Shown here piece by piece: positions 174-20,465 of a stretch of DNA of 64,000 bases. Position 1 is the first letter of the stretch, and each line of letters opens with the position of its first letter. The position numbers and the translations under genes were made by a program. The notes below the pieces were generated by a model that worked only from the letters and a program-made list of their open reading frames with translations, was not told where the DNA came from and did no database searches. The DNA is from Alphaproteobacteria bacterium SO-S41 (GTDB lineage Bacteria > Pseudomonadota > Alphaproteobacteria > Micropepsales > Micropepsaceae), in NCBI GenBank assembly GCA_019670725.1, contig AP024629.1, forward strand, positions 3,038,001-3,102,000. The letters run 5' to 3'.

Positions 174-854
174 TCAAAACAATGCGGCCAGCCGGGCGGC
201 AAGATCGTCGGCGGAGGACTCCGGCGACGCGTCGCGGCGGAAGGCGACCAACGGGACGTCCCCCGCCAAACGCGCGAGGGCCGCGACCGTTTCGTCGAAC
301 GGCGCCTCGCCGGAGCTTTCGCTGACAGCGACGGCCGCGACCTGGAGACCGCGCGCCCTGAGGCACGCCAGGGCCGTCAGGGTGTGGCTGATCGCGCCGA
401 GATAGGAGCCGCTGACCAGCACGACCGGGCCGGAGAGCGCCGCCATGAGGTCGAGCATAGTGTGATCGTCGTCCAACGGCGACATGACCCCGCCGGCGGT
501 TTCGACCAGCAGGATCGCGTCGCCCACCTCCGTAGTCCGCGTCTGGCAGAGGTCCCGCACATCCGAGAACGCCAGCACCCGCCCCTCCCGCTTCGCGGCC
601 AGCGGCGGCGAGAGCGGCGCGGCGAAGCGAAGGGGCGCGATGTGGGCGACGGTCTCGGCAGTGACGGGTTGGCCCAAGGCTTCCAGCAGCATGGCGGGGT
701 CGCTGCCGGTGTAGTCCGCCTCGTCCACGCCGCTCGCGACCGGCTTCAGCGCATCGATCGCAAGGCCGCGCCGGGCGAGCGCACGCAGCAGCGCGGCGGC
801 GACATAAGTCTTGCCGATATCGGTGCCCGCGCCGGCGATGGAGAGCACCGGCAT
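174..854 (-). CDS. bioD: Dethiobiotin synthetase BioD
   Basis: 226 residues, the usual BioD length. It closes the ureido ring of dethiobiotin from 7,8-diaminopelargonate, CO2 and ATP, the penultimate step of biotin synthesis. The N-terminus carries the P-loop GAGTDIGKT (residues 8-16) and the middle the conserved ETAGGVMSPL segment expected in BioD. The start ATG shares one base with the bioF stop (TGATG), so the two genes are translationally coupled in a bioF-bioD operon. bioA is divergent next door; bioB and bioC are not in the window. Confidence 0.95.
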   Translation of the reverse strand: MPVLSIAGAGTDIGKTYVAAALLRALARRGLAIDALKPVASGVDEADYTGSDPAMLLEALGQPVTAETVAHIAPLRFAAPLSPPLAAKREGRVLAFSDVRDLCQTRTTEVGDAILLVETAGGVMSPLDDDHTMLDLMAALSGPVVLVSGSYLGAISHTLTALACLRARGLQVAAVAVSESSGEAPFDETVAALARLAGDVPLVAFRRDASPESSADDLAARLAALF

Positions 855-2002
855 CAGGCGGGCTTCAGGCGATTGACGGCGGCGGCGAGGCGTTCGATGT
901 CGCGGTCGTCATGCCCAGCGCTGAAGGCGATGCGCAGGCGCGCGGTGCCGACGGGCACGGTGGGCGGGCGGATGGCGACGACGGCGAAACCCTGGTCCTC
1001 CAACGCTGCCGAGGCCGCGAGCGCGGTCTCGGCGCTGCCGAGCAGGACAGGCACGATGGGCGACTGCGCGGGTGGCAGATCGGTCAAACGCGTGAACAGC
1101 CGCGCCTTGGCGACCGGCGCGGCGCAGAGGGCCGGGTCGGCCGCGATGACATCCAGCGCCGCGATGGCGGAAGCTGCGGAGGCAGGCGGCAGGCCGGTCG
1201 AATAGACGACGGTCCGCGCCCGCGTCTTCACGAAGTCGATCACCGGCTGGGTCGCGCAGAGATAGCCGCCATAACCACCGATCGCCTTGGAAAGCGTCCC
1301 CATCTGCAGATGAATGTGCGCACCGGGGAACAGCGCCGCCGAACCCTTGCCCTCGCCCAGCACACCGACGCCATGCGCGTCGTCGCTGAGCAGCCAGGCA
1401 TCGTTCGCGGCGCAGATGTCCGACAGGCGATCGAGCGGCGCGATGTCGCCATCCATGGAGAACACGCCATCGGTCGCGACGATCGCATGGCCCGCGGCGG
1501 CGCGATGCTCGCCCAGCAGCGCGGCGAGATGATCCACGTCGTTGTGCCGGAACGGCAGCACGCGCGCGCCCGATAGTTTCGCCCCTGCCCAGATACAGGC
1601 ATGGGCGAGCTCATCGACGATCACGAGATCGTCAGGTCCGGCGAAGGTCGGGATGATTCCGGTATTGGCGAGATAGCCCGAGCCGAAGACGCACGCGGCT
1701 TCCGTGCCCTTCAACGCCGCCAGACGTCGCTCCAGCGTCTCCAGCAGCGGATGATCGCCGGTGATGAGGCGCGACGCGCCGGCACCCGCGCCATAGGCCA
1801 GCGCCGCATCGGCGGCGGCCTGCTTTACGGCGGGATGGTGCGAGAGATTCAGATAGTCGTTGCACGAAAAGGAAAGCAGCCGCTTGCCGCCGCGCTCCAG
1901 CCACAACCCGTCGGTCCTGATGGTCTCGACCAGCGTCCGGCGCAGCGTGCGCGCGTCGAGCGCGGTCAGCTTGACCTCTGCGTAACGTGTCAGGGAGTCC
2001 AT
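854..2002 (-). CDS. bioF: 8-amino-7-oxononanoate synthase BioF
   Basis: 382 residues from the ATG at 2002 (MDSLTRYAEVKL). An upstream in-frame non-ATG extension exists but adds 37 residues unlike the family and runs towards the bioA start. BioF is a PLP enzyme that condenses pimeloyl-ACP (or -CoA) with alanine. Visible family marks are FSCNDYLNLSHHP near residue 45, GSGYLANTG, DDAHGVGVLGEGKG and the PLP-lysine segment GTLSKAIGGYGGY. It ends one base into bioD, its downstream partner. Confidence 0.95.
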   Translation of the reverse strand: MDSLTRYAEVKLTALDARTLRRTLVETIRTDGLWLERGGKRLLSFSCNDYLNLSHHPAVKQAAADAALAYGAGAGASRLITGDHPLLETLERRLAALKGTEAACVFGSGYLANTGIIPTFAGPDDLVIVDELAHACIWAGAKLSGARVLPFRHNDVDHLAALLGEHRAAAGHAIVATDGVFSMDGDIAPLDRLSDICAANDAWLLSDDAHGVGVLGEGKGSAALFPGAHIHLQMGTLSKAIGGYGGYLCATQPVIDFVKTRARTVVYSTGLPPASAASAIAALDVIAADPALCAAPVAKARLFTRLTDLPPAQSPIVPVLLGSAETALAASAALEDQGFAVVAIRPPTVPVGTARLRIAFSAGHDDRDIERLAAAVNRLKPA

Positions 2003-2071
2003 GCAGCTCTTCGATTGCGTGACGGGCGCGCAACGCATAGCAACGCGCGGCTCGCATGCAACGGGAAAACG
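2003..2071. promoter_or_regulatory. Divergent bioF/bioA promoter region
   Basis: The 69 bases between the divergent bioF and bioA starts must hold both promoters. An imperfect inverted repeat TTGCG-N9-CGCAA lies around 2014-2033, followed by a second CGCAACG/AGCAACG echo. This could be a repressor site. I see no match to the BioR palindrome (TTATCTATAA) known from other alphaproteobacteria, nor an E. coli-like BirA operator. Confidence 0.35.
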
Positions 2072-3337
2072 ATGACCGACACGCCAGAGTGGTACGAGAC
2101 CGGCGCACGTCACGTCTGGCGGCCCTATACCCAGATGAAGACCGCGCGGCCGCCGCTGAATGTGACGCGCACGGAAGGCGCGACCATCGTGCTCAGTGAC
2201 GGGCGCGTGCTGATCGACGGCGTCGCGTCATGGTGGACGGCCTGTCACGGCTATAACCATCCGCACATCGCCATGGCGATCACCCAGCAACTCGCCCGCG
2301 CGCCGCATGTGATGTTCGGCGGCCTCGCGCATGAGCCGGCCTATCGCCTGGCGCGGCGCTTAGCAGAGCTGCTGCCCGGCGATCTCGATCACGTCTTCTT
2401 CGCGGAGTCCGGTTCTGTCGCGGTCGAGATCGCGATGAAGATGGCGATCCAGTACTGGCTTAATCGCGGCCTCACCGGGAAGACGCGCTTCGTCTCGTTC
2501 CTCGGCGGCTATCACGGCGATACGCTGGCGACGATGAGCGTGTGCGATCCCGAAGAGGGCATGCACACGATCTTCAACGGCGTCATGCCGCCCCAGCATG
2601 TCGTGGCGCTGCCGCGCAATGCCGCGTCGGAGGCGACGCTGGATGCGCTGCTCGCCGCGCATCATGGCGAGATCGCCGCGATCCTTGTCGAACCCCTGGT
2701 GCAGGGCGCGGGCGGTATGGTGCTGCATCCGCCCGAAGTCCTGCGGCGGCTGCGCGCCCTCGCCGACCGGCACGGCGTGCTGCTGATTTTCGACGAGATC
2801 TTCACCGGCTTCGGCCGCACCGGCACGCTGTTCGCGATGGAACAGGCGGACGTCATCCCCGACATCGTCACGCTGTCCAAGGCGCTGACCGGTGGCACGC
2901 TGCCGCTCTCATGCGCCGTCGCGCGTACACCGGTGTTCGACGCGTTCTGGTCGGATGATCCCAACGCCGCGTTGATGCACGGCCCCACCTATATGGCGAA
3001 CCCCCTCGCCTGCGCCGCGGCCAATGCGAGCCTCGATCTGTTCGCGGACGGCACCTGGCACGCCAATGTCGCGCGCATTTCAGACGGACTCCGCGCGGGA
3101 CTGGAACCCTGCCGCACCCTGGCCCGCGTGCGCGATGTGCGCGTGCTGGGTGCGATTGGCGCGGTGGAGCTGGACCATGTCGTTGACTCCACGCGCCTAT
3201 CGGAACGCTTCGCTGCCGAGGGTGTATGGATCAGGCCGTTCGGACGGATCGCCTATCTGACACCGGCCTTTGTGGTGAGCGACGCGGAACTCGCCAAGCT
3301 GACCAGCGCAATCGTCCGTGTGCTGAGCGAGGATTAG
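2072..3337 (+). CDS. bioA: Adenosylmethionine--8-amino-7-oxononanoate aminotransferase BioA
   Basis: 421 residues, starting at the ATG MTDTPEWYETG. It transfers the amino group of SAM to 8-amino-7-oxononanoate to give diaminopelargonate. Typical BioA motifs are HVWRPYTQMK at the N-terminus, ASWWTACHGYNHP, the YHGDTLATMS segment, DEIFTGFGRTG and the PLP lysine in TLSKALTGGTLPLS. Divergent from bioF-bioD. Its last four bases overlap the end of the convergent beta-barrel gene. Confidence 0.95.
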   Translation: MTDTPEWYETGARHVWRPYTQMKTARPPLNVTRTEGATIVLSDGRVLIDGVASWWTACHGYNHPHIAMAITQQLARAPHVMFGGLAHEPAYRLARRLAELLPGDLDHVFFAESGSVAVEIAMKMAIQYWLNRGLTGKTRFVSFLGGYHGDTLATMSVCDPEEGMHTIFNGVMPPQHVVALPRNAASEATLDALLAAHHGEIAAILVEPLVQGAGGMVLHPPEVLRRLRALADRHGVLLIFDEIFTGFGRTGTLFAMEQADVIPDIVTLSKALTGGTLPLSCAVARTPVFDAFWSDDPNAALMHGPTYMANPLACAAANASLDLFADGTWHANVARISDGLRAGLEPCRTLARVRDVRVLGAIGAVELDHVVDSTRLSERFAAEGVWIRPFGRIAYLTPAFVVSDAELAKLTSAIVRVLSED

Positions 3338-4695
3338 TAACCCGTCGTCAGGCCCAGGCGGAACACGTTGCGCGTGGCATCGCCCGCGATATCCGACGAG
3401 CGCTCCTCATATCGGTAGTCGGCCGTCACGCGGATGCGCGGTGTGAAGACGTAGTCGAAGCCGAGGCCGGTGAAGAAGCGGTCGTCCTTGCGGTCGGAGC
3501 CGTCATAGGTTTCGCGCTGCCAGCCGACCTCGCCGCGCACCAGCAACTGGCGCAGCGGTTCGTATTCGACGCCGAGGCGCACGCTATCGCGTGTGACCGG
3601 CGAGGTGATCGCGCCGCCCGCTTCCAGCGCCGTGCGCTCCGCGCCGAAATCGCGACGCGCGTTCAGGTGGAACGACATCAGTTCGGTCGCGAACCAGTCG
3701 AGCGAGGCACCATAGGTGAAGCCGGTGACCTCGCCGCCGTCGGGGTAGGACTGCACCGCATAACCGGCAAAGGCCTCGCCGGTCAGCACGCGGCTGATCT
3801 CGAACTCGGCGCCCGCGACGGCGCGCCAGCCGTCGCTGTCGGCGGTCTCGTCGGTGTAGCGCTGGATGTTGTAGCCGCCCTCGACAAAGAGCGCAGTGCC
3901 CGGCGTGAAGCGCCAGCCGGCGCGCAGCTTGGCATCGGCATTGGTGCCGGTGCGGAAGGCCTGGTCAACCAGCACGCCGCTTTCGGTCAGGCGGTCGTCA
4001 TAGTCGGAATAGACGACATCGCCGCTCGCGGTGACGAACCAGCGGCCTGTGTCGAAGGTGACGCCGAGCGAGGCGGGCACGCTGAGATAGCGCGCGAGAT
4101 CGACATAAGGATCGAACAGGCCGCCGATCACGATACCGTCGGTAGCGCTGTCCTCCGACGAAGTGACCGCGACGCCGATCGCGCCGCGGATGCGGACGTA
4201 ATCGCTGACCTGGGCGTTGAAGTTGAGGCCGCCGTTGTAGTCGAGATGGTCGAGATCGGCGGCGTCCGTGTACCAGATCTGCGAGACCTCGGCGTAGGCG
4301 CCGTAGGAATTCGGCCCGTCCTCGTTGACGACATCGACGCGGCCACGCAGCTCGACGGTCGGACTGGCGATGGGGTTGTCGGCCGAGACCGTGACATTGT
4401 CGTCATAGCCGCCGCGCAGGGTCAGCGATGGCGTCACCTTCCACGGCCCCGCCATCAGGCCGGGCGTCGCATTGTTGCGGTTGAACCGGTCGCCGACGCT
4501 TTCGGGCTCGGGCGGCGGCGGCACAGGGTCGCGGCGCAGCATCGGGGCCTGTTCGGGGTCCGGCGCGCGGACCGATTGCTCATCGGGCTGCGCCGCCGCG
4601 GACTCGCGCAGCAGCCCCGTGCCAGGCGCCTGCGCCCAGGCGCTCGACGCGCCCAGGATCGCTAGCAACGGCAGGAGGCAGCTTCGGGCCGGCAT
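3334..4695 (-). CDS. Outer-membrane beta-barrel protein of the polysaccharide locus (BBP2-like, possible Wzp partner)
   Basis: 453 residues. A signal peptide (about 1-21, ending AWAQA) is followed by a Pro/Glu-rich linker. The remainder is alternating amphipathic strands such as LTLRGGYDDNV, YGAYAEVSQIWY, FVTASGDVVYSDY, FVEGGYNIQRYTD and VTADYRYEERSSD, ending in a terminal Tyr as outer-membrane barrels do. The pattern fits the putative beta-barrel porin 2 type found in alphaproteobacterial exopolysaccharide loci. It is divergent from the short polysaccharide-export lipoprotein at 4833. By analogy with myxobacterial Wzp porins it may form the outer-membrane pore which that short exporter lacks; this role is inference. 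Confidence 0.75.
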   Translation of the reverse strand: MPARSCLLPLLAILGASSAWAQAPGTGLLRESAAAQPDEQSVRAPDPEQAPMLRRDPVPPPPEPESVGDRFNRNNATPGLMAGPWKVTPSLTLRGGYDDNVTVSADNPIASPTVELRGRVDVVNEDGPNSYGAYAEVSQIWYTDAADLDHLDYNGGLNFNAQVSDYVRIRGAIGVAVTSSEDSATDGIVIGGLFDPYVDLARYLSVPASLGVTFDTGRWFVTASGDVVYSDYDDRLTESGVLVDQAFRTGTNADAKLRAGWRFTPGTALFVEGGYNIQRYTDETADSDGWRAVAGAEFEISRVLTGEAFAGYAVQSYPDGGEVTGFTYGASLDWFATELMSFHLNARRDFGAERTALEAGGAITSPVTRDSVRLGVEYEPLRQLLVRGEVGWQRETYDGSDRKDDRFFTGLGFDYVFTPRIRVTADYRYEERSSDIAGDATRNVFRLGLTTGY

Positions 4696-4832: not shown

Positions 4833-5432
4833 ATGAAGTCCGCCCTCGTCTTCCTGCGGGTCGTCCCGCTGCTGCTTGCCGCCGCGCTCGCGGCCTGCAC
4901 CAGCCCGATCACCAATGTGGCCGCGGGCAATCCCGCCAGCCGCGCGATCGGCCCGTCCGGCGGCGCCGAGGCCGCGACCGAGATCGCCGTGGGCGATCGG
5001 CTACGCATCGCGGTCTTCGGCGACGACAAGATGTCGGGCGAATACAATGTCGGCGAGAGCGGCGCGATCACCGTGCCCTTGGCCGGTCCCGTCTCTGTCG
5101 CGGGGCGGACACCGGAGGACGCGGCCAAGGCGATCGCCTCGGTGCTGGTCACCGCCGGCCTCTTCCGCGACCCCAAGATCACCGTCGAGATCCTGACGCT
5201 CAGGCCGTTCTACATTCTGGGCGAGGTGAACCGGCCCGGCGAGTATCCCTATCGTCCCGGCCTGTCGCTGTTCGCGGCGGTGGCGACGGCGGGCGGCTAT
5301 ACCTATCGGGCGGACAGCGGTTCGGTCTTCATCCGCAAGGCAACGGAGAAGACCGAGCGCAAGTTCGACATCAATTCGGACATCGCCATCATGCCCGGGG
5401 ATGTCATCCGCATCCCCGAACGCTACTTCTGA
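4833..5432 (+). CDS. Short polysaccharide export lipoprotein (OPX/GumB-like)
   Basis: 199 residues. The lipoprotein signal ends at LAAC, so Cys22 is the lipid anchor. Then comes a polysaccharide-export domain (about 52-120, with YNVGESGAITVPLAGPV) and one SLBB-like domain (about 128-185, with FYILGEVNRPGEYPY and AAVATAGGYTYRA). E. coli Wza is about 380 residues and continues into further ring domains and an outer-membrane helix. Both are absent here, so this is the short OPX class. It should sit at the inner face of the outer membrane as the exit portion of the exopolysaccharide exporter, working with the Wzc-like protein (14902-16983) and perhaps the adjacent barrel. Confidence 0.88.
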   Translation: MKSALVFLRVVPLLLAAALAACTSPITNVAAGNPASRAIGPSGGAEAATEIAVGDRLRIAVFGDDKMSGEYNVGESGAITVPLAGPVSVAGRTPEDAAKAIASVLVTAGLFRDPKITVEILTLRPFYILGEVNRPGEYPYRPGLSLFAAVATAGGYTYRADSGSVFIRKATEKTERKFDINSDIAIMPGDVIRIPERYF

Positions 5433-5435
5433 GCC

Positions 5436-6206
5436 TTAGTAGGCGGCGCGGCCCAGCAGCACGGCGGGGACGGTCTGCAGCAGGATGCGGATGTCGGCCA
5501 GCAGCGAGAAGCTGCGGATGTACTCCAGATCCGAAGCGACACGGGCCCGGGCATGGGTGGCGTCGCCGATCTCGCCGCGCAGGCCGCGGACCTGGGCAAG
5601 GCCGGTGATGCCGGGGCGCACGCTGTGGCGGGCGAAGTATTCCGGAACCAGGTCCTCGTAACGGACGCCGGCGGCGTGCATGCCGAGCACGTGGGCGCGG
5701 GGGCCGACCAGCGACATGTCGCCCTTCAGCACGTTGAAGAGCTGCGGCAGCTCGTCGAGGCTGCTGCGGCGGATGAAGCGGCCGACCGGCGTGACGCGCG
5801 GGTCGTTGGCGACGGTGTGCGAGATGCCGGTCTTGTCTTCCAGTTCGACGAACATCGAGCGGAACTTGTAGACACGGAACGGCGTGTTGCCGCGGCCCCA
5901 GCGGCGCTGCGTGAAGAGCACCGGGCCGCGGCTGGTCAGCTTCACGGCCAGCGCGACGCCGATCAGGACCGGCGAGAGCAGCAGGATGAGGATCGAGGCG
6001 ACCACCACGTCGAAGGCCCGCTTGATCGCGAAGGCGACCGTGCGGTTGCCGGGGACGGCGACCGGGCGGCGGAGCAGGAAGGTGGAGGGCGTCAGGTCGT
6101 TGCTGATATTGAGCATCGTCGACATGCCGAACTCGCCGATATTGAACGGCGCGCGGCCCAGTTCGGTCGCGGTGTCGGCATTGGCTCCGGTCGGCTGAAT
6201 GTTCAT
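5436..6206 (-). CDS. Monotopic undecaprenyl-phosphate sugar-1-phosphate transferase (initiating glycosyltransferase)
   Basis: 256 residues from the ATG at 6206, which has AGGAAG 10 bases upstream; a longer in-frame N-terminus reading to 6302 is possible. One hydrophobic helix (AFDVVVASILILLLSPVLIGV) is followed by the bacterial sugar transferase domain: KLTSRGPVLFTQRRWGRG, FRVYKFRSM, RRSSLDELPQLFNVLKGDMSL and GPRAH. This initiates repeat-unit assembly by moving a hexose-1-phosphate from UDP-sugar to undecaprenyl phosphate. It lacks the multi-spanning N-terminal half of WcaJ/WbaP. It converges on the exporter gene with a 3-base gap. Confidence 0.88.
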   Translation of the reverse strand: MNIQPTGANADTATELGRAPFNIGEFGMSTMLNISNDLTPSTFLLRRPVAVPGNRTVAFAIKRAFDVVVASILILLLSPVLIGVALAVKLTSRGPVLFTQRRWGRGNTPFRVYKFRSMFVELEDKTGISHTVANDPRVTPVGRFIRRSSLDELPQLFNVLKGDMSLVGPRAHVLGMHAAGVRYEDLVPEYFARHSVRPGITGLAQVRGLRGEIGDATHARARVASDLEYIRSFSLLADIRILLQTVPAVLLGRAAY

Positions 6207-6411
6207 GGCAACCTGACTTCCTGATCCGAGACGTCCAATTGCGGGACGCTTGCGGAGGGCAGGTTTCAAAGGGCGTGCCAGCACCGAACTACTAATTTTC
6301 ATTAGGGTTATTAAGGGGTTACTTGATATTTACCTTAACGGCGGAGGGCCGTTTGAGGGGCATTGGCGGATCCTTAAGCGAGGTATGCGACAGCTGATCC
6401 ATGGCCCGCGC

Positions 6412-10989: not shown

Positions 10990-11051
10990 GTGCCAAATCC
11001 TTAAGTATGCTGAGGTTAGTCATACACATCGGCGGTTAAGGGAGCGTGCGC

Positions 11052-12161
11052 GTGAAGCTCGACCGGAGAGGCTTTCTGGCGGCCGGCGCTGCGGCGGCGC
11101 TGCTGCGTCCTGGAGTTGCACAGGCTGTGTCGCCGCTCAACCTCGGCGCCGACGCCGCCGACCGGGGGATCGTATTTGGCAGCGCCTTCGACCGTGAAAT
11201 CTTCGACGACACAGCCTATGCCGCCCTTCTACGCGCCCAATGCCGCATCGGATCGCTGGAGAACAGCCTCAAATTCGACTGGCTGAAGCCGACCGGAAAT
11301 GTCGCGGATTTCAGCGCTTCCGACCGGCTCGTCGACTTCGCCGTGGAGAGCGGCATACGACCGCGCGGCACCGCGCTGATCTGGAACGACTGGCTGCCAG
11401 ACTGGCTGAAATGGACGACGGTGCTGGAGCGTCGTTCGATCATGGAAAAGCACATCGACGAAGTGGTCGGGCGCTATGCCGGACGCGTGCAATCCTGGGA
11501 CGTGGTGAACGAGCCTTTCTTCCCGCCGCACGGCATCGACGGTGGCTATCGCAAGGGCCTGTGGCTGGATGCGATGGGGCCGGATTACATAATCCACGCA
11601 TTCAAGCGCGCCGCAGCGGCCGATCCCAAGGCGCAGCTCGTGCTCAACGAAGCCTTCTGCGAACAGGACGACGAGCTCGGGAAATCCATCCGGCCGCTGC
11701 TGCTGAACGAGGTGAAGCGGCTGCAGGATGCGGGCGTCAAACTGGACGCGATCGGGTTCGAAGCGCATCTGAGGCCCGAGCTCCCGTACGACGATCAGGC
11801 CTTCGTAGCCTATGTCGCCGAGATCGCGGCGCTGGGCGTCGACGTGATGATCACCGAGCTCGACGTCAATGACAGCCACATGCCCGACGACGAGGCCGAG
11901 CGCGATGCGCAGGTCGCGGCGCGGGTGCACGATTTCCTGGGCGCGGTGCTGCAGGTACCGCGGGTGACGACGGTGATCACCTGGCATCTCAGCGATCGCT
12001 ATTCCTGGTATCGCGGCGCGGACTGGTATGCCGATCAGGTGCGCGCCGGCGGCGGCACGCCGGGTCGTCCGGTCAGATCGCATCTCTACGACGATCAGTT
12101 GCAGCCGAAGGCGGCGGCGTTCGCTGCACGCGATGCGCTGAAAGCGTCAGGCCCGCACTAG
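11052..12161 (+). CDS. Tat-exported GH10 family glycoside hydrolase (endo-xylanase-like)
   Basis: 369 residues using GTG 11052, chosen because AAGGGAG lies eight bases upstream; GTG 11046 is possible. The N-terminus is a twin-arginine signal (DRRGFLAAGAAAALLRPG). GH10 hallmarks are the acid/base Glu154 in WDVVNEPF and the nucleophile Glu269 in ITELDVND, plus TWHLSDRYSW near the end. GH10 enzymes cleave beta-1,4-xylans and some other beta-glycans. Placed beside the flippase and polymerase genes it more likely trims or releases the organism's own polysaccharide than degrades plant xylan; that is inference. It overlaps the convergent flippase gene by 15 bases. Confidence 0.88.
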   Translation: MKLDRRGFLAAGAAAALLRPGVAQAVSPLNLGADAADRGIVFGSAFDREIFDDTAYAALLRAQCRIGSLENSLKFDWLKPTGNVADFSASDRLVDFAVESGIRPRGTALIWNDWLPDWLKWTTVLERRSIMEKHIDEVVGRYAGRVQSWDVVNEPFFPPHGIDGGYRKGLWLDAMGPDYIIHAFKRAAAADPKAQLVLNEAFCEQDDELGKSIRPLLLNEVKRLQDAGVKLDAIGFEAHLRPELPYDDQAFVAYVAEIAALGVDVMITELDVNDSHMPDDEAERDAQVAARVHDFLGAVLQVPRVTTVITWHLSDRYSWYRGADWYADQVRAGGGTPGRPVRSHLYDDQLQPKAAAFAARDALKASGPH

Positions 12162-13580
12162 GCGGCTGCGCACCTTGGCGAACGCGACGCGCGCGCCGTC
12201 GGGGAACATCACCCCCATGGCGATGCCGTAGACGAGCACGCCGGCGGCGACTTCGATCAGCATGCCCGTCAGAGAATGAGCGAGCGGCAGGAAGACGAGC
12301 ACCGCCGTCATCGCCGCCGTCGCGCCGGCGATCTTCGCGATATCGGCGAGGCGCAGGTAGAAGCCGAACAGGCGGTTGGCGACGATGAAGCTGAAGAGCT
12401 CGCCGATAATCGCGGCGACGAGACAGCCCGCGACGGCACCCTGGATGCCGCCGATGCGGAGGCCGATCCAGCAGCACACGACGATCGCGCCGGCCTCCAG
12501 CATCGTGCTCCAGATGTTCAGCGTCGTGCGCTCGAACAGCAGGAAGACCTGGTCGGATCCGTGGTTCTTGAACGCGCGGATGGCCCCGGCCGCGACCGCC
12601 ATGGGCAGGATGTCGATGGTGATGGGCACATAGGCGGCGGCGACCAGCGTCTCGACCAGCGACTCGTTGAGGACGATGACTCCCGCGACCGATGGCACGA
12701 GAATGGCGAGCAGCAGCGCGCTGTTGGTCGCGAATTGCGGCAGCGCGCCGGCGGCGCCCAGTTCATGGATCTTCTGCACGGCGATGGTGAACGAAGCGCC
12801 CGTCACCAGCATCGCGGCGAAACTGGTGAGGCGGAGGCCCAGCCACCAGCCGACCGTGACATAGCCGACCGCGGCGACGTCAAATTCGAGCTGAACGATG
12901 AAGCGGATCGCCTGGCTGCCGACCCAGACGAGCAGGCTCGCCACCACCAGCGGCGCACCGTAGCGCCAGGCGGCGGCCAGCAGCTTCGCATCGGGCCGGG
13001 GCCGCACGGCCTTGAGGCGCATCAAAGGCAATGCAAGCGCGAGCGCCAACACCTGCGCCACCGTATAGGCCCAGAGCAGCGCCTCGGGCGTCGGCCCGAT
13101 GAAGTTGACCGCGAGCAGGCCGAAGACCAACCCGATGCCGGAGCCGACGATCTGGATGACGCTGAACGCGGTGATCTCGAAATGCGCGCGGGCCCGGTCG
13201 GCGAAATGGCTGCCGATATTGCGGGTCAGCGTGAAGCAGACCGCCGCCGCGATGAAATGCAGCGTCGGCTCGATATCGAGGAAATAGCGCACGGCCAGCG
13301 CCGCGAACGCCGCCTGGAACAGCGCGGCGGCGATCTGCACCGCCCACTCCATGCCGTCGAGCCGGGCGCGGTCGGTGAGGGTCGAAGTGTAACGCAGCAC
13401 GAAAGCCGACCACCAAGCGAGCGCTGCGAGCCCCGCCACCTCCTGGATCGCCCAGACCAGCACATAGGCGCCGAGCGCCTCGGGCGCGAGCCAATAGGTC
13501 CAGACGACCGCCGCCGCCATCTGCGCCAGCGGCCCGATCACCTGGGCCGGCAGATAGAGAATGGTCTGGCGCATCAGCAT
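12147..13580 (-). CDS. Wzx-like polysaccharide flippase
   Basis: 477 residues from ATG 13580 (MLMRQTILYLP), two bases after the polymerase stop. About 12-14 hydrophobic segments are spread evenly (for example GPLAQMAAAVVWTYWLAP, ALWAYTVAQVLALALALPL, ILVPSVAGVIVLNESLVETLV), the layout of MATE/MOP-superfamily polysaccharide exporters. It would flip the undecaprenyl-linked repeat unit to the periplasm. The same frame stays open upstream through the polymerase gene, but that stretch is antisense-like sequence and not part of this protein. Confidence 0.85.
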   Translation of the reverse strand: MLMRQTILYLPAQVIGPLAQMAAAVVWTYWLAPEALGAYVLVWAIQEVAGLAALAWWSAFVLRYTSTLTDRARLDGMEWAVQIAAALFQAAFAALAVRYFLDIEPTLHFIAAAVCFTLTRNIGSHFADRARAHFEITAFSVIQIVGSGIGLVFGLLAVNFIGPTPEALLWAYTVAQVLALALALPLMRLKAVRPRPDAKLLAAAWRYGAPLVVASLLVWVGSQAIRFIVQLEFDVAAVGYVTVGWWLGLRLTSFAAMLVTGASFTIAVQKIHELGAAGALPQFATNSALLLAILVPSVAGVIVLNESLVETLVAAAYVPITIDILPMAVAAGAIRAFKNHGSDQVFLLFERTTLNIWSTMLEAGAIVVCCWIGLRIGGIQGAVAGCLVAAIIGELFSFIVANRLFGFYLRLADIAKIAGATAAMTAVLVFLPLAHSLTGMLIEVAAGVLVYGIAMGVMFPDGARVAFAKVRSRLVRA

Positions 13581-13582
13581 CG

Positions 13583-14887
13583 CTAGCGCGCCTCCGCCGG
13601 CCGCGGACGCGGCGCGCGCCGCATCAGGATCAGCAGCATCACCACGAACTGCGCCAGCGTCGTCGACTTGCCCGACAGCGAGGCAGAGGTGGAGCAGACC
13701 GTCAGGAAGAACAGGATGGGCCAGAAGGCACGCACCTGCGTCGCTCGCCAGAGGTCGTAGAAAAAGGTCAGCAGGCCGATAAAGAACGGCAGGCTGATCA
13801 GGATGCCGTAATAGGCGATGAAGGCGATCCAGAAGCTCTCGATGCCGAAGGCGATGCCTTCGGTCCGCTGCAGCGTCGCGACGACTTCGGGATCGGCGCC
13901 GACCAGCAGCTCGTGAAACGGGATGCGGCCGATCAGGTCGAACATCCGCACGCGGCTTGCGGCCGAGCCCTCGTCGCTGATGAAGCGCATGATGAATTTG
14001 TCGAGGAAGCCGTCGGCGACCAGCAGGATGATGCCGATCACCAGCACGGGCACCAGGAAGGCGGCGGCTGCGGCGGCGTTCACCGAGAACTTGCGGCCAT
14101 TCAGCAGCAGGATCGCATGGCGGAAGGCGATCACGCCCGCGAAGAGCCCGAAAAGCAGCGTCGCGAAGCGTCCGCCGAACACCGCCATCGCGAAGATCTG
14201 CAGCAGCAGCGCGGCGGCGCGCCAGCCCGACGTCAGATCGCGCCCGCCGCCGAGCAGCAGCATCAACGCGTAGGACGCCGCATGGAGGGCATTGTTGAGG
14301 GGGTGGCCGAGCAGCGCCGACGAGCGGTAGTCGGAGTTCAGCTCCATCCCCTGCGCGACGATCGGCGTCAGGCGCCAGCCGGTGCCGAACTCCGCAATGC
14401 CGAGTAGCGCGTTCGCCGCCATGAAGACGTGGATGAACAGCGCCATGCTGCGTTTGTGCGCGGGCGACAGGCGCACCACGATGATCGACAGGGCGATCGG
14501 CAGCAGGAAGGAGTCGAACGTCGCCGTCAGCGGCGAGCCCTGGAACACCACGATGTAGGCGAACAGCATCGCCCAGGTGATGAGGAAGACGAGCGTGCCC
14601 TTGTGGCGCTGGATGATCTCGTCGAGCAGCGCCATCGCATTGCGGCGCTCCGCGAACATGGCGAGCAGCGCCAGGAAGGCGAAATAGGTCGCGGGCGCAA
14701 TCTTCTGCCACTGCGCGCCGCCCGAGGTCTCATAAGCCATGCCGAGCATGGTGAGCATCAGGCTGGAGACCAGATACATCACCGCGACCGACGCGAAGGC
14801 GAAGAACGCCATCGGGCCGATGCCGCCGGTTTTCCGGCGGGGCGGCGACTTGATCCAGGCCGATGCGTTCATCTCGTTCGCCGGCAT
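13583..14887 (-). CDS. Wzy-type polysaccharide polymerase / O-antigen ligase-like protein (VpsF-like)
   Basis: 434 residues from ATG 14887; a TTG at 14905 overlapping the preceding gene would add six residues. It has roughly 11 transmembrane segments and a large periplasmic loop between about 280 and 340 (DKFIMRFISDEGSAASRVRMF, FHELLVGADPEV), as in Wzy/WaaL proteins. SRVRMFDLI is the sort of Arg-containing periplasmic motif these polymerases use. The overall look is that of the VpsF group. Polymerises repeat units in the periplasm. Operon order on minus: copolymerase, polymerase, flippase. Confidence 0.78.
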   Translation of the reverse strand: MPANEMNASAWIKSPPRRKTGGIGPMAFFAFASVAVMYLVSSLMLTMLGMAYETSGGAQWQKIAPATYFAFLALLAMFAERRNAMALLDEIIQRHKGTLVFLITWAMLFAYIVVFQGSPLTATFDSFLLPIALSIIVVRLSPAHKRSMALFIHVFMAANALLGIAEFGTGWRLTPIVAQGMELNSDYRSSALLGHPLNNALHAASYALMLLLGGGRDLTSGWRAAALLLQIFAMAVFGGRFATLLFGLFAGVIAFRHAILLLNGRKFSVNAAAAAAFLVPVLVIGIILLVADGFLDKFIMRFISDEGSAASRVRMFDLIGRIPFHELLVGADPEVVATLQRTEGIAFGIESFWIAFIAYYGILISLPFFIGLLTFFYDLWRATQVRAFWPILFFLTVCSTSASLSGKSTTLAQFVVMLLILMRRAPRPRPAEAR

Positions 14888-14901
14888 GGCGATGCCCGCC
14901 T

Positions 14902-16983
14902 TCAAGCCGTCGCCTTGCCCGCCATCGTCAGCACGATGCCGCAGGTCTTTTCGCCGCGGATGCGCAGCGCGCGCAGGGCGGCGGCGACATCGCCGCGCGT
15001 GGTCGATTCCGCCTTAAGGACGAGCGCCACCTGGTCGACCGCTTCCGCGATGGCACGGGCATCGGGCTCATCCCGCAGGGGCGCGCCGACGAAGAGGACA
15101 TAGTCGAATCGCGCGCGGGCATAGGTGATCAACCGCTCGATCGCGGCGCGCGACGGGCGATAACGCGAGACCTTGGACGTCACGGCCATCGGCAACGCCT
15201 GGAAGCCGCTCGCGCCCGAACCGGCCAGCGCATCGGTGAAGCGCACCTTGCCGGCCAGCACTTCCATCAGGCCCACCGACGCGTCCGGCGCGACCATGGC
15301 CGAGAGCGAGCGGTTGACGGGATCGGCGTCGATGATCAGGACGCGCTCGCCGGCGGCGACTGCCGCGAGGGCGAGATTGAGACCCACCAGAGCCGAGCCA
15401 TCGCCCTTGCGTGAGGCAACGATCAGGGCGGAGCGTTCGGCCTGACGCTGAACAGGATCGCGCAGCTCGGCGCGGAGCAGGCGGATCGCATAGTCGAAGC
15501 TGCCGTCCGGCCCGCGCTTGCGCGCACGGAAAGGCGGCACCACGGCAAGAACGTCGAGCCCCGCGCGACGCAGCTGCGCCGCGTTGCGGATGCGGTCGTC
15601 GAAGCGCTCGCGCAGCAGCGCCAGCGCGGCGCCGCCGCCGAGGCCCAGCGCCAGCGCGATGCCGATGATGAAGAGACGCGGCGGGAACGAGGCCGCCGAC
15701 GGCATCGCAGCCGGCGCGATGACGCGGGCAGACGAGATTTCCAGCCGCTCCTGCTCGCTCGTTTCCTTGGCGCGGGCCAGAACGGATTCGTAGACTTCGC
15801 GGATGGCATCGGCCTCGCGCTGCAATTCGCGGAGCTGGATGAGAACGCCGGCGTCCTTCACGTCCTGTCCGGTGACGCGGTCGAGTTCGGCCTGCAACGC
15901 GGCGACGTCGCCCTTGGCGCGTTCCAGGTCGTTGCGCGCGGAGGCGGCGATACGCCCGACTTCCGCATTGATCTGCGCCTGCAGGCTTGCGACTTCCGCG
16001 CGCACCTTGATGACGGAGGGATGGCGGTCGCCCAGCGTCGCGGAGAGATCGGCCTCGCGGCGCTGCGCATCGGCGAGCTGCGCGCGCAGCGCGGCGATCA
16101 CCGGCGACGCCAGCGCTTCCGACGACGAGGCGGCGTCGCTGCGGCTGATCTGGTCGTAGCGCGCCTGCGCCGTCGCCAGCTTGGCGCGCGCTTCGACGAG
16201 GCGCTTGTTCAACTCGTCGAGCTGCTGCTCGGTCGTCGCAGAACCGTCCTTGCCGACAAGGCCGTTGGCGGCGCGATAGGCTTGAACCTTGTCTTCGGCG
16301 GCGCGCAGCTGCTCCTGCAATTCGGAGAGGCGCGCGGTCAGCGCTTCGTTGGCGCGGCGGGTTGCGGCGCGCGCGGCATCGTTCTGGTCGTCGATATAGG
16401 CCGCGGTCACGGCATCCGCGACCTTGCGCGCCCAGACCGGATCCTTGGCGGTCGAGCGCACTTCCAGCACATAGGTGCGGTCAGCGCGGCTGGCCGCAAT
16501 GCGGCGGCCGAGCGTGTCGAGCGCGCTCGCGGCGCGCTCAACGGGGTCTTCGGACTTGCCGCCAAACTCCTCGACATTAGCGAGGCCGAGCGTTTCGACG
16601 ACGCGGCCGAGCACGGCGTCCGAGGTGATGACGCGCACCTGGCTTTCCACAAGCGCGGCGTCGGAGCCCGAACCCGCGGAGAGAACTTCGGTCTGCAGCA
16701 CGCGTTGATCGCGCGGGTCGAGCAGCAGCAGCGCCGAGGTCGTGTAGAGCTTGGGCGTCACCACGAGATAAGCGAGCGCGAGGCCGACCAGCAGAACGGC
16801 GGGCACGACGACGGTCAGCCAGCGCCGGCGCAGGATGTCGATCAGGCCGCGAATATCGATGCCGTCTTCGCCGGGATGATTGTCCGGCTCGAACGCAACC
16901 GGGGGCGGCGGCGGCCGGTGATCGCCGGCGCGCCGCAGCGGACGGGCGCCGCCGCTATAGGGGGTCATCGCAGCCGACTGCAT
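14902..16983 (-). CDS. Wzc/GumC-like polysaccharide copolymerase with degenerate kinase domain
   Basis: 693 residues from ATG 16983, with AAGGAT upstream. A Wzz domain with an N-terminal TM (WLTVVVPAVLLVGLALAYLVV) leads to a long periplasmic coiled coil (about 190-430) and a second TM (LFIIGIALALGLGGGAALAL). The cytoplasmic BY-kinase-like domain follows. Where an active kinase has GEGKS/T it reads KGDGSALVGLNL, so the Walker A Lys and Ser/Thr are missing. The Walker A' LIIDADPVNRS is kept. The C-terminus (EKTCGIVLTMAGKATA) has no tyrosine cluster. It should control chain length and span the envelope to the OPX lipoprotein, but probably does not autophosphorylate. Confidence 0.88.
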   Translation of the reverse strand: MQSAAMTPYSGGARPLRRAGDHRPPPPPVAFEPDNHPGEDGIDIRGLIDILRRRWLTVVVPAVLLVGLALAYLVVTPKLYTTSALLLLDPRDQRVLQTEVLSAGSGSDAALVESQVRVITSDAVLGRVVETLGLANVEEFGGKSEDPVERAASALDTLGRRIAASRADRTYVLEVRSTAKDPVWARKVADAVTAAYIDDQNDAARAATRRANEALTARLSELQEQLRAAEDKVQAYRAANGLVGKDGSATTEQQLDELNKRLVEARAKLATAQARYDQISRSDAASSSEALASPVIAALRAQLADAQRREADLSATLGDRHPSVIKVRAEVASLQAQINAEVGRIAASARNDLERAKGDVAALQAELDRVTGQDVKDAGVLIQLRELQREADAIREVYESVLARAKETSEQERLEISSARVIAPAAMPSAASFPPRLFIIGIALALGLGGGAALALLRERFDDRIRNAAQLRRAGLDVLAVVPPFRARKRGPDGSFDYAIRLLRAELRDPVQRQAERSALIVASRKGDGSALVGLNLALAAVAAGERVLIIDADPVNRSLSAMVAPDASVGLMEVLAGKVRFTDALAGSGASGFQALPMAVTSKVSRYRPSRAAIERLITYARARFDYVLFVGAPLRDEPDARAIAEAVDQVALVLKAESTTRGDVAAALRALRIRGEKTCGIVLTMAGKATA

Positions 16984-17019
16984 CTTAACCAAATCCTTGT
17001 CAGGCGCCCCGCCGCTCTT

Positions 17020-17787
17020 TTACGAGCTTCGGCGTGCGCCTGCACCTCGCCACCGAGCCCATAGTAAACGCCAAAGAAATTTAGAATTTCCCAAAAGGTA
17101 GCGCTGCCACAGCCGCCCCGGCTCCCGGCCGAGCCGGTAGACCCACTCCATGCGCACCGCGCGAAACGCCGCGGGCGCGCGGGAAACCCGGCCCGAAAGG
17201 AAATCGAACAGCGCGCCGACGCCGACCGCGACGCTGCACTCGAGGGCCGCGAAATTTCGGTCGATGAATTTTTCCTGGCCGGGATTTCCGAGCGCCACCA
17301 GCAGGATATCGGGTTTTAGCGCGTTGATGGCGGTGACAATCCCCGCTTCTTCCCAGGCGTGGAAATAGCCGTGATAGGCGCCGGCGATGACATGCTGTGG
17401 CGCCAGTTCGGCGATCCGTGTGCCCGCCATGCCCGCAACGCCCGGCAGGCCGCCGAGCAGATAAATGCGGGCCGACGTCTTCGTCTCGGTGAGAAAGCGC
17501 GGGGTGAAATCGGTGCCGTTGAGGTTTTCGGGAAAGCGCGCGCCATGCAGCACGCGGCCCGCGATATCGACACCGACGCCGTCGTTAAGGATCGTGAAAC
17601 CATCGAGCACCGCGCGAAAGGCCGCGTCCCGGCCTGCGAGGTTCGAGGTATGCGCGTTGAGAAAGCCGAGCTTGATCCGCTCGCCCCGCGCGCGGCGCGC
17701 GTTGATGTCGGCGATCGCCTCGTCGGCTGTCGCGGCGGTGACCCTGACACCCATGATGTCGCGTGTCGGCAGCGCTGTTTCGCTCAT
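17020..17787 (-). CDS. WecG/TagA/CpsF family glycosyltransferase (GT26)
   Basis: 255 residues. Family motifs in order: LGFLNAHTSNLA, ILNDGVGVDIA (residues about 67-77), ENLNGTDFTPRFL, IYLLGGLPGVA, LVALGNPGQEKFI and GVGALFDFLSG followed by RAP. GT26 enzymes transfer ManNAc(A) or other sugars from UDP donors to lipid-linked acceptors. The start ATG overlaps the stop of the upstream GT4 gene by four bases (ATGA), so the two are coupled. Downstream is the copolymerase gene after 36 bases. Confidence 0.9.
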   Translation of the reverse strand: MSETALPTRDIMGVRVTAATADEAIADINARRARGERIKLGFLNAHTSNLAGRDAAFRAVLDGFTILNDGVGVDIAGRVLHGARFPENLNGTDFTPRFLTETKTSARIYLLGGLPGVAGMAGTRIAELAPQHVIAGAYHGYFHAWEEAGIVTAINALKPDILLVALGNPGQEKFIDRNFAALECSVAVGVGALFDFLSGRVSRAPAAFRAVRMEWVYRLGREPGRLWQRYLLGNSKFLWRLLWARWRGAGARRSS

Positions 17788-18857
17788 GGTGCCGTCACCT
17801 CCGCGATCAGCGTTTCGAATTGGTCGAGCGCGCGGTCGAGCGAAAACGTATCGGCGCGGACGCGATGCGTGGCGGGATCGCCGGGATCCGCCAGTGTCGC
17901 GTCGATCGCCGCCGCCATTTCAGCAACATTGCCGACGGCGACGAGTTTGCCGTCGAGCCCGTTGCGCAGCACCTCTTCCGGCCCGCCACAGCGCGTGGCG
18001 ACGACCGGAATGCCATGGCCGAGCGCCTCGACGATCACATTGCCGAATGCTTCGGTGCGCGAGGAGAGCGCCAGCATCTTGGCCTCCGCATAGGCGGGCC
18101 AGGGCTCTTTCAGATAGCCGCGAAACGTGACGCGATCGGCGATCCCGAGATTTTTTGCGAGCGCCTCCAGCGCGCCACGCTCGGGCCCATCGCCGAGCAC
18201 GACGAGCTGCGGATTCTGCGTGGATTGCGCAATTGCGGCCAGCAAAGTGGCGAAGTCTTTCTCCGGCACAAGACGTCCCACCGCGAGCACGATATTGGGA
18301 CGCGCCGCGAGCGCCTCTGCCGTTGGTATGCTTTCGAACGGGGGCAGGTGGATCGCGTTGTGAATTGTCGTCACGCGATCTGGCCGGGCACGAAAACGGC
18401 GGATGAGATAATTCCTGAGATCGTCGGAGACGACGACGGTGCGCGCCGACAGGCGGCTAGTGAAGATCGTCGAGGCGTAATTGAAACGGCCGAGGAAACG
18501 CGGCTCTGCATCGTAGCGACCGTGCGCCGACAGCACCGCCGCGCCCTTCCAGCGCGCCAGCGTTTTCGCCAGCAAAAGCTTGAGGTTTGACGCACCCACC
18601 GCGGCGAAGGCGACCGCCGGCTTTTCACTTTTCAGATAGCGCGCGATCGCCCGCACGGCCTTGCCGTGACCCTGCCCGAACACGACGCGCTTCATGTCGG
18701 CGGGCAACAGCCCGGCATTTTCCGGCGCTTCGAAATCGACTCCGAACGTCACATCCCAGCCACGCGCGTGCAGGCCGGCTGCCACCAGCGCCCATACCCG
18801 CTCGGCGCCGCCACCAACCAGGCCGTGTGTATAAAATAGCAGCCGCTTGTTAGGCAT
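17784..18857 (-). CDS. Glycosyltransferase, GT4 family
   Basis: 357 residues, a full GT-B enzyme. Seen are FYTHGLVGGGAERVW at the N-terminus (GGAE acceptor loop), VTTIHNAIHLP, then the C-terminal donor domain with NIVLAVGRLVPEKDF, LVVLGDGPERGAL and SSRTEAFGNVIVEALGHGIPVVAT, which holds the E-x7-E motif. Cytoplasmic sugar addition to the repeat unit is the likely role. It is first in a minus-strand operon (GT4-GT26-copolymerase-polymerase-flippase) and is divergent from the propeller gene. Confidence 0.9.
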   Translation of the reverse strand: MPNKRLLFYTHGLVGGGAERVWALVAAGLHARGWDVTFGVDFEAPENAGLLPADMKRVVFGQGHGKAVRAIARYLKSEKPAVAFAAVGASNLKLLLAKTLARWKGAAVLSAHGRYDAEPRFLGRFNYASTIFTSRLSARTVVVSDDLRNYLIRRFRARPDRVTTIHNAIHLPPFESIPTAEALAARPNIVLAVGRLVPEKDFATLLAAIAQSTQNPQLVVLGDGPERGALEALAKNLGIADRVTFRGYLKEPWPAYAEAKMLALSSRTEAFGNVIVEALGHGIPVVATRCGGPEEVLRNGLDGKLVAVGNVAEMAAAIDATLADPGDPATHRVRADTFSLDRALDQFETLIAEVTAP

Positions 18858-18974
18858 TTCGCAAAAGGCTTGGGGTTAAGGTCATCCCGGAAAATAAGAC
18901 GAAGTTCTGAATTTAAAGTTCGCCTGACTGCCGCTGCGTGCGGCGATGTGCGGACAAGGGGTTTCCGGCACCGC

Positions 18975-20465
18975 GTGGCGACGTCTCGGCTCGACATCAG
19001 GCTGGCCATCGATCCGGCGCGCGCCCGTCAGTGGCACCGCGCGCTGGCCGACGAATTGCGCCGCCGCGGGCACTCCGTCGCGATTGCGCTCAGGCCCGGC
19101 GGGCGGCGCGTGCCGCAGACCATTGGCGTGCTGCTGGCGCTCGAAAGCGTGACCGGCAAACCGTGCCCGAAATCCTTGGGCTCGCCGTGGGCGGGCGACG
19201 CCTTGTCGAAGGCCGCTTCAGTCTCCGCCACGACGCCGCAGCTCGAAATCGACGTGACCGGCCAGCCGCGCGCCGACCAGACGCTGCGCACCCTCTCTCC
19301 CGTTTATGATGATGGCCTCGTCGAAGAGGCTGCCGTTGCGGCGCTGATCGCCGGCTATTTTCCCGCCATCGGCATCCGCGACAGCAATGCCGCTGCCTCG
19401 CCGCTGATGACCCATCCCGGCCTCGACTCCGCGCACCGCGTCGGGCGCTCGCTCGACAATCTCGGCGCCCGCCTCGTCGCGCTGTTCGCGCGCGCCGTGG
19501 ATGCGGTGGCGTCCGGGCAGACGGTGGCCGGCAACAAGCCGCTCGCCGTGCGCGACGCCAATGTCTGGCACGCCAGCGACGCGCTGGGCGCGCTCACCTT
19601 TTCCGCGCGGCGCCTGCTGAAGAAAATGCTGGCGCGCGGGCCGCATTGGTATGTCGGCTGGCGGCGCACGGTGCACAACCGCGCCTATGACACGCTGGCG
19701 GTTCCCGCCGGCGGCTGGACGCGCCTGCCCGACGACGGCAAGCGCTTCTACGCAGATCCCTTTGTCGCCACCTATGGCGGCAAGACCTGGATCCTCGTCG
19801 AGGAATTCCCCTACGCGACCGGTCGTGGCATCATTTCCGCGGTGGAACTCGGCCCGAACGGCCCGATAGATACGCCCCGTCCGGTGCTCGAAACCGGTAG
19901 CCACCTCTCCTACCCGTTCATCTTCGAACGCGACGGGCAGATGTGGATGATCCCGGAAAGCGCGGAAAACCGCACCGTCGATCTCTACCGCGCCGAGGCG
20001 TTCCCGGATCGCTGGGTCCATGTCGCGACGCTGCTGAAGGACATCCCGGTCGGCGACGTCACGATCGCCGATCACGGCGGCAAGCTCTGGATGTTCGGCA
20101 CGGTCGGCGAGGGCGATGCCTCGTCCTGGGATGCGCTGCACCTGTGGTCCGCGGAAAAGCTGGAAGGCCCGTGGCACGCCCATGGCGATAACCCGGTTTT
20201 GATGGACGCCCTCGGTGCGCGGCCCGGCGGCGCGTTCTATAGGAAGGACGGCGCCCTGTGGCGCCCGGCGCAGGACTGCACCACCGGCTATGGCGTGGGG
20301 CTTGCACTCTGCCAGGTGACGAAGCTGGACGACGACGGCTTCGAACAGGAAATCAAGGCGGTGCTGCGGCCCGGCGGGCCCGATTGGCCCGGAACGGGAC
20401 TGCACACGTTGAACTGGGCGGCCGGCGTCGAGGTCGTCGATGGCTGCCAGGATCGCAGGCGATGA
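18975..20465 (+). CDS. Two-domain protein: formyltransferase-like N-terminus plus GINT1_N-like beta-propeller
   Basis: 496 residues if GTG 18975 is the start; an in-frame TTG at 18870 gives 531, and no start has a strong ribosome binding site. The N-terminal 200 residues (IRLAIDPARARQWHRALADE, NAAASPLMTHPGL) look like a formyltransferase-type fold lacking clear catalytic residues. From about residue 225 a five-bladed propeller is suggested by repeats such as RFYADPFVATYGGKTWILVEEF, SYPFIFERDGQMWMIPESA and ADHGGKLWMFGTVGEG. This C-terminal part resembles the domain seen in glucosamine-inositolphosphorylceramide transferases and GH43/68-type furanosidases. Likely a carbohydrate-acting enzyme; activity not known. 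The stop overlaps the next start (ATGA). Confidence 0.6.
   Translation: MATSRLDIRLAIDPARARQWHRALADELRRRGHSVAIALRPGGRRVPQTIGVLLALESVTGKPCPKSLGSPWAGDALSKAASVSATTPQLEIDVTGQPRADQTLRTLSPVYDDGLVEEAAVAALIAGYFPAIGIRDSNAAASPLMTHPGLDSAHRVGRSLDNLGARLVALFARAVDAVASGQTVAGNKPLAVRDANVWHASDALGALTFSARRLLKKMLARGPHWYVGWRRTVHNRAYDTLAVPAGGWTRLPDDGKRFYADPFVATYGGKTWILVEEFPYATGRGIISAVELGPNGPIDTPRPVLETGSHLSYPFIFERDGQMWMIPESAENRTVDLYRAEAFPDRWVHVATLLKDIPVGDVTIADHGGKLWMFGTVGEGDASSWDALHLWSAEKLEGPWHAHGDNPVLMDALGARPGGAFYRKDGALWRPAQDCTTGYGVGLALCQVTKLDDDGFEQEIKAVLRPGGPDWPGTGLHTLNWAAGVEVVDGCQDRRR

Follow-up and report, generated by a model that had tools for sequence, protein, structure and literature searches.

Wzc-type co-polymerases (PCPs) are described by a standard model in which they need cycles of tyrosine phosphorylation. 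As reported for Escherichia coli Wzc, the dephosphorylated protein is an octamer held by the tyrosine tail of one protomer in the active site of its neighbor, phosphorylation of the tail dissolves this octamer, and the kinase-dead variant K540M is octameric (PMC8285477). BY pseudokinases, including fusions to PCP-2 proteins, have already been published (EcpK, HfsB, PssP2 and SMc01795), so that the kind of protein considered here is not new. EcpK of Myxococcus xanthus was proposed in 2025 to be a BY pseudokinase that acts, independently of phosphorylation, as a scaffold for its partner PCP, EpsV (PMC12004946). Among the fused PCP-2 pseudokinases named in the same account are SMc01795 of Sinorhizobium meliloti, Mlr8439, BCETI_6000729 and VV1_2305, the fused forms coming from Sinorhizobium, Mesorhizobium, Brucella and Vibrio (PMC12004946), and PssP2 of Rhizobium leguminosarum, a protein of 586 amino acids, is reported to lack the A, A' and B motifs (PMC4182512). 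Our search of the literature on SMc01795/CuxR and on unipolar polysaccharide with a PCP found, among the papers listed, none on the pseudokinase clade described below.

We analyzed a window of 64,000 nucleotides from the genome of Alphaproteobacteria bacterium SO-S41, which carries on its minus strand a gene for a PCP-2a pseudokinase co-polymerase (14902-16983, 693 amino acids from ATG). The same open reading frame extends to a TTG at 16992 (14902-16992, minus strand, 696 amino acids), of which the ATG at 16983 is codon 4; this ATG is the better start, since two orthologues from the genus begin with an ATG at the corresponding position. Residues are numbered here from the TTG. A Wzz domain (residues 44-134; 16591-16863; PF02706, 48.4 bits) and a GNVR domain (residues 389-462; 15607-15828; PF13807, 34.6 bits) both score above their cut-offs, and the secondary structure of the AlphaFold2 model places transmembrane helix 1 within the Wzz domain (residues ∼58-78) and transmembrane helix 2 at the GNVR domain (residues ∼439-464). 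They are followed by a pseudokinase domain with a BY-kinase fold (residues 501-690; 14923-15492), as supported by structure matches. The combination of Wzz and GNVR domains, two transmembrane helices and a fused cytoplasmic domain of BY-kinase fold is that of a PCP-2a protein of the Wzc type, and Wzc is also the top match in a sequence search of the PDB (E value, 1e-14). The kinase-domain profiles, by contrast, remain below threshold (AAA_31, 21.2 bits versus a cut-off of 27; TIGR01007, 62.9 versus 108), as do the matches to the NCBIfam exopolysaccharide transport and Wzc kinase families. The gene product is thus a full-length Wzc-like PCP-2a co-polymerase, that is, an inner-membrane protein that aids the synthesis and export of a sugar polymer.

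The first-pass annotation of this gene had proposed that its kinase domain lost the P-loop and the C-terminal tyrosine cluster but kept Walker A' (LIIDADPVNRS), and all three statements held up on alignment. The degenerate Walker A motif (residues 528-535, RKGDGSAL; 15388-15411) has Ser533 and Ala534 at the positions of the Lys and the Thr/Ser of intact BY-kinases, the Walker A' motif (residues 552-557; 15322-15339) contains both Asp555 and Asp557, and the last 30 residues (14905-14994) include no tyrosine. An additional defect had been missed, namely, the replacement of the Walker B Asp by Val635 (residues 631-638, YVLFVGAP; 15079-15102). The EX2RX2R ring-interface motif (named in PMC3795738) is also broken, with Tyr501 in place of the Glu and with Arg504 and Arg507 retained. 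The protein therefore agrees with an active BY-kinase only at Walker A', differing from it at Walker A, Walker B, the tyrosine cluster and EX2RX2R, and it has what defines a BY pseudokinase, a BY-kinase fold without catalytic motifs or tyrosine tail, except that Walker A' is retained. For comparison, 90 of the 110 aligned rows (two of which are duplicates) have an intact Walker A motif, a class defined by the motif itself so that K533 is present in 90/90 by construction, and at least three tyrosines occur in the last 30 residues of 83 of these 90. Two of the PCPs with an intact Walker A motif, L039 and L027, have no tyrosine in their last 30 residues and possibly combine an active P-loop with the absence of a substrate tail. 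Given that the PCP domains score above and the kinase models below their cut-offs and that orthologues from other genomes lack the same residues, the motif loss reflects neither chance nor misalignment.

Despite this motif loss, the fold of the kinase domain is predicted to be kept. The AlphaFold2 model built from a 50-row alignment has a mean pLDDT of 84.3, with blocks of the kinase domain mostly at 86 to 95 (a model from a 7-row alignment was weak, with a pLDDT of 71.5, and was set aside). VIA-align superimposes the domain on the kinase domain of Etk (3cio; Z, 29.1; 227 aligned; 2.4 Å), on that of Wzc in its octamer structure (3la6; Z, 28.9) and on full-length Wzc K540M (Z, 29.3), with MinD/ParA proteins as the next-ranked matches (Z, 17), and Foldseek gives the pseudokinase domain a match with an E value of 3e-12.

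Judging from profile matches, the gene sits in a cluster for a Wzx/Wzy exopolysaccharide pathway. Its stop codon is overlapped by 4 bases by the gene for a Wzy polymerase of the VpsF family (13583-14905, minus strand; NF038256, 284.7 bits against a cut-off of 150; 8 hydrophobic segments), beyond which lies a Wzx flippase-like gene, weakly HfsF-like (12147-13535, minus strand, start provisional; NF050818, 67.5 bits, below the cut-off of 700; 11 hydrophobic segments). On the other side are genes for a WecG/TagA/CpsF glycosyltransferase (17020-17787, minus strand; PF03808, 178.4 bits), a GT4 glycosyltransferase (17784-18857, minus strand; PF00534, 117.4 bits) and a GINT1_N-type protein, likely a glycosyltransferase (18870-20465, plus strand; PF24793, 105.4 bits). 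The cluster further holds an initiating phosphoglycosyl transferase with an HfsE/WcaJ-like catalytic domain (5436-6302, minus strand; PF02397, 218.2 bits; TIGR03025, 297.6 against a cut-off of 295.6), a short OPX polysaccharide export protein (4833-5432, plus strand; PF02563, 72.9 bits) and an outer-membrane β-barrel of the BBP2_2 type (3334-4695, minus strand; PF10082, 190.7 bits), which is probably the partner of the short OPX protein. In the family, each of the six orthologue loci has the WecG and GT4 genes adjoining the PCP gene; a Wzy gene follows the PCP gene in five of them, as well as in 6/8 other loci of the clade described below. A special link of the pseudokinase PCP to a short OPX protein with a separate β-barrel was considered and rejected, as both are common beside intact Wzc; among the best 80 loci, an OPX protein of any length is present in 65 and a barrel in 60.

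Several further features of this region were observed. In the GINT1_N protein, the match to the N-terminal part of glucosamine inositolphosphorylceramide transferase 1 occupies the second half, and the first 290 residues have no strong Pfam match. Homologues of this protein are encoded near the pseudokinase PCP in L045, L046, L049, L051, L053, L055 and L058, and the genera in which such a homologue lies near the PCP are Bosea, Methylobacterium and Aureimonas. The cluster adjoins genes for an AAA_26 protein, a class I/II aminotransferase and a class III aminotransferase (174-3337), which look like biotin synthesis genes (the first bioD-like, the second bioF-like). A scan of the window with Rfam returned no match. 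A GH10 glycoside hydrolase gene also lies in the cluster (11046-12161, plus strand), with the same neighbor genes in L044 and L045, and GH10 genes are found near the degenerate PCPs of L048, L020 and L029 as well; a GH10 gene, prmN, is described as part of the Sphingomonas promonan cluster (PMC11340318).

Relatives of the co-polymerase were found at an E value of 1e-20 in 63 of the 96 genomes of the window's family. Orthologues with 66 to 69% identity occur in three of the four other genomes of the genus, further relatives with 39 to 43% identity occur in two genomes of a second genus (g6) and one of a third (g3), and all six lack the same catalytic residues as the window protein. In a collection of species genomes, the same loss was found, among the best 80 loci retained, in Methylobacterium, Bosea, Aureimonas and MAGs. 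We built a tree of 55 chosen rows of the 110 from the PCP part only, with the kinase columns excluded, and in this tree 15 degenerate proteins, including that of the window, form a single alphaproteobacterial clade (SH-aLRT, 100) that spans the window's genus, two other genera of its family, Methylobacterium, Bosea, Aureimonas and MAGs. Lys533 of Walker A and the interface Glu501 are present in none of the 15 members and at least three tail tyrosines in none of 14, while the Walker B Asp is absent from all seven members of the window's subclade versus present in 7/7 of the other members with residues there. The motif loss is therefore inherited and not a matter of decay. Asp555 is found in 15/15 and Asp557 in 14/15 members, so that near-invariant Walker A' aspartates (15322-15339, minus strand) coexist with the loss of Walker A throughout the clade. 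Placing all 18 degenerate proteins in a single group was rejected (p-AU, about 1e-51); the remaining three (L020, L029 and L036) make up an independent second group of degenerate PCP-2a proteins from the same bacterial family, likewise without a tyrosine tail, and L036 retains the Lys, has Asn for Thr and lacks the Walker B Asp. A sample of 385 genomes from across the class yielded 113 with a match; since 28 of the 29 non-window loci examined were intact and only L131 was degenerate, the degenerate form looks uncommon in the class. The five relatives examined out of 166 matching plasmid records all have intact motifs.

We consider it probable that this protein, the only PCP-2a co-polymerase found in its genome, retains its pseudokinase domain as a phosphorylation-independent structural scaffold, where the lack of activity, the formation of a ring and the scaffold role are the parts that we infer. 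The pseudokinase would neither bind ATP canonically nor autophosphorylate, and it would offer no tail to be phosphorylated. Its folded domain would make up the base of the co-polymerase ring on the cytoplasmic side and keep the two transmembrane helices and the periplasmic helices in a conformation supportive of the neighboring Wzy and of the export proteins of the outer membrane, and any assembly or disassembly of the ring would be driven by partner binding and not by a phosphorylation cycle. According to this proposal, a structural function is the reason for the retention of the domain. The protein is comparable to a Wzc that is kinase-dead by nature and has no tail. Whether a ring forms through the Wzc interface is uncertain because the tyrosine tail and the EX2RX2R Glu are both lost, and for the same reason a ring, if formed, would not be held as in Wzc. 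Counting against the scaffold is the report that both kinase and phosphatase activities are required in E. coli (PMC8285477). The idea of the first-pass annotation that regulation works by a nucleotide-free conformation comes close to this scaffold reading, in which there is no kinase cycle.

The conservation pattern speaks against a pure scaffold at one point, since a scaffold need not require the near-invariant aspartates of Walker A'. An unlikely alternative is that the pseudo-active site uses the Walker A' Asp to bind a ligand, be it a nucleotide, a metal or a loop of a partner protein, and that this binding replaces phosphorylation in the control of ring assembly. The special conservation of the Walker A loop is gone in the clade, where its identity is 0.21 versus 0.33 for the whole domain (0.68 versus 0.44 across all intact rows), and that of the Walker A' region is kept (0.75 versus the same 0.33). 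The latter value favors a pocket, as does a basic residue (Arg or Lys) at position 528 in 5/7 rows of the window's subclade versus 0/90 intact rows; however, a Walker A loop that is conserved below the level of its domain, together with the loss of the Lys and the Thr/Ser and, in the window's subclade, of the Walker B Asp, is not what a ligand site would suggest, and the conservation of Walker A' may be structural. A specific form of this idea is that the dead kinase does more than serve as a scaffold, the Walker A' aspartates forming a repurposed pocket whose occupancy, instead of tyrosine phosphorylation, moves the ring from one state to another. Walker A, the tail and the interface Glu would then have been lost first and Walker B later, in the window's subclade alone, with A' retained throughout; we regard this form as quite unlikely.

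Control in trans, either by another kinase, such as a Hanks-type kinase that modifies the cytoplasmic domain, or through mixed rings that also contain an active BY-kinase PCP, is very improbable. The window genome is complete, consisting of one contig of 4.44 Mb that encodes one Wzz-domain protein, the pseudokinase PCP, and searching all of it with TIGR01007 returned no BY-kinase above the cut-off. Besides the PCP there were seven weaker hits, of which the five examined by open reading frame are of the ParA/MinD type (ParA, FlhG, Mrp, CpaE and a second ParA-like protein) and the other two (L008 and L009) are partial and lie outside the Walker A part. Given the complete contig, the sole Wzz-domain protein and the empty search, a stand-alone BY-kinase in this genome is unlikely, and the earlier suggestion that a separate kinase is used finds no support for BY-kinases. 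Five Hanks-type Ser/Thr kinases are encoded in the genome, which would allow such control, but none lies within the window, and the protein has no tyrosine tail. Among eight genomes of the family, a BY-kinase above the cut-off is present in four (G008, G014, G087 and G093), that is, in 4/7 of those with the pseudokinase PCP, and absent from the window genome, G011, which also lacks a relative of this PCP, and G012 and G013, which are only 91 to 92% complete. At least in the window genome, the pseudokinase PCP thus does not depend on the cell also having an active BY-kinase. Sequence, phylogeny and genome content all give good support to the proposed absence of phosphorylation cycling. A cognate phosphatase was also sought, and both hits to the LMWP family were rejected as lying outside the exopolysaccharide cluster; one adjoins an ArsR-like gene and reads as an arsenate reductase, and the other is in a hisD-like region.

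Decay of the kinase domain into a remnant without a role would agree with the relaxed Walker A loop but is extremely improbable, as the gene has no stops, the fold is predicted to be retained, the clade is old and the dN/dS ratio of the pseudokinase domain is below 0.45 in all six same-genus pairs (0.087 to 0.443, Nei-Gojobori). This ratio is lower than that of the periplasmic part in four of the six pairs, and the pseudokinase is the least-changed part between L011 and L012 (91% identity), so the domain is under purifying selection within the genus.

A phosphorylation-independent scaffold in a genome whose sole PCP is a fused pseudokinase would offer a clean test of how a cell sets the length of its polymer and controls export when the phosphorylation cycle is missing, and near-invariant Walker A' residues in a dead kinase are a specific, testable oddity. 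It would also add a fused form, present in several alphaproteobacterial genera, to the phosphorylation-independent group proposed from EcpK and HfsB. The window protein shares with EcpK the BY-kinase fold, the lack of Walker A, Walker B and tyrosine tail, and a Wzx/Wzy exopolysaccharide pathway; EcpK, however, is described as a separate protein and is reported to lack Walker A' too (PMC12004946), whereas the window pseudokinase is fused to its PCP and keeps this motif. M. xanthus is described as having two active BY-kinases, in contrast to none above the cut-off in the window genome. The likeness to the holdfast proteins HfsA/HfsB of Caulobacter lies in an alphaproteobacterial Wzx/Wzy pathway with a pseudokinase (PMC12004946). 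The Wzx and phosphoglycosyl transferase of the window resemble the HfsF and HfsE models below their cut-offs, but HfsB is described as a separate protein, and the window PCP matched no model named HfsA or HfsB. With E. coli Wzc and Etk, which are active PCP-2a proteins, the window protein shares the domain order and the predicted fold but not the catalytic residues or the tyrosine tail. Going by their descriptions, it is like SMc01795, Mlr8439, BCETI_6000729, VV1_2305 and PssP2 in being one polypeptide with a kinase-like domain devoid of catalytic motifs, although PssP2 is reported to have a much shorter periplasmic part and to lack A' (PMC4182512). What is distinctive here is that a genome with no BY-kinase above the cut-off encodes a pseudokinase that has retained its Walker A' motif.
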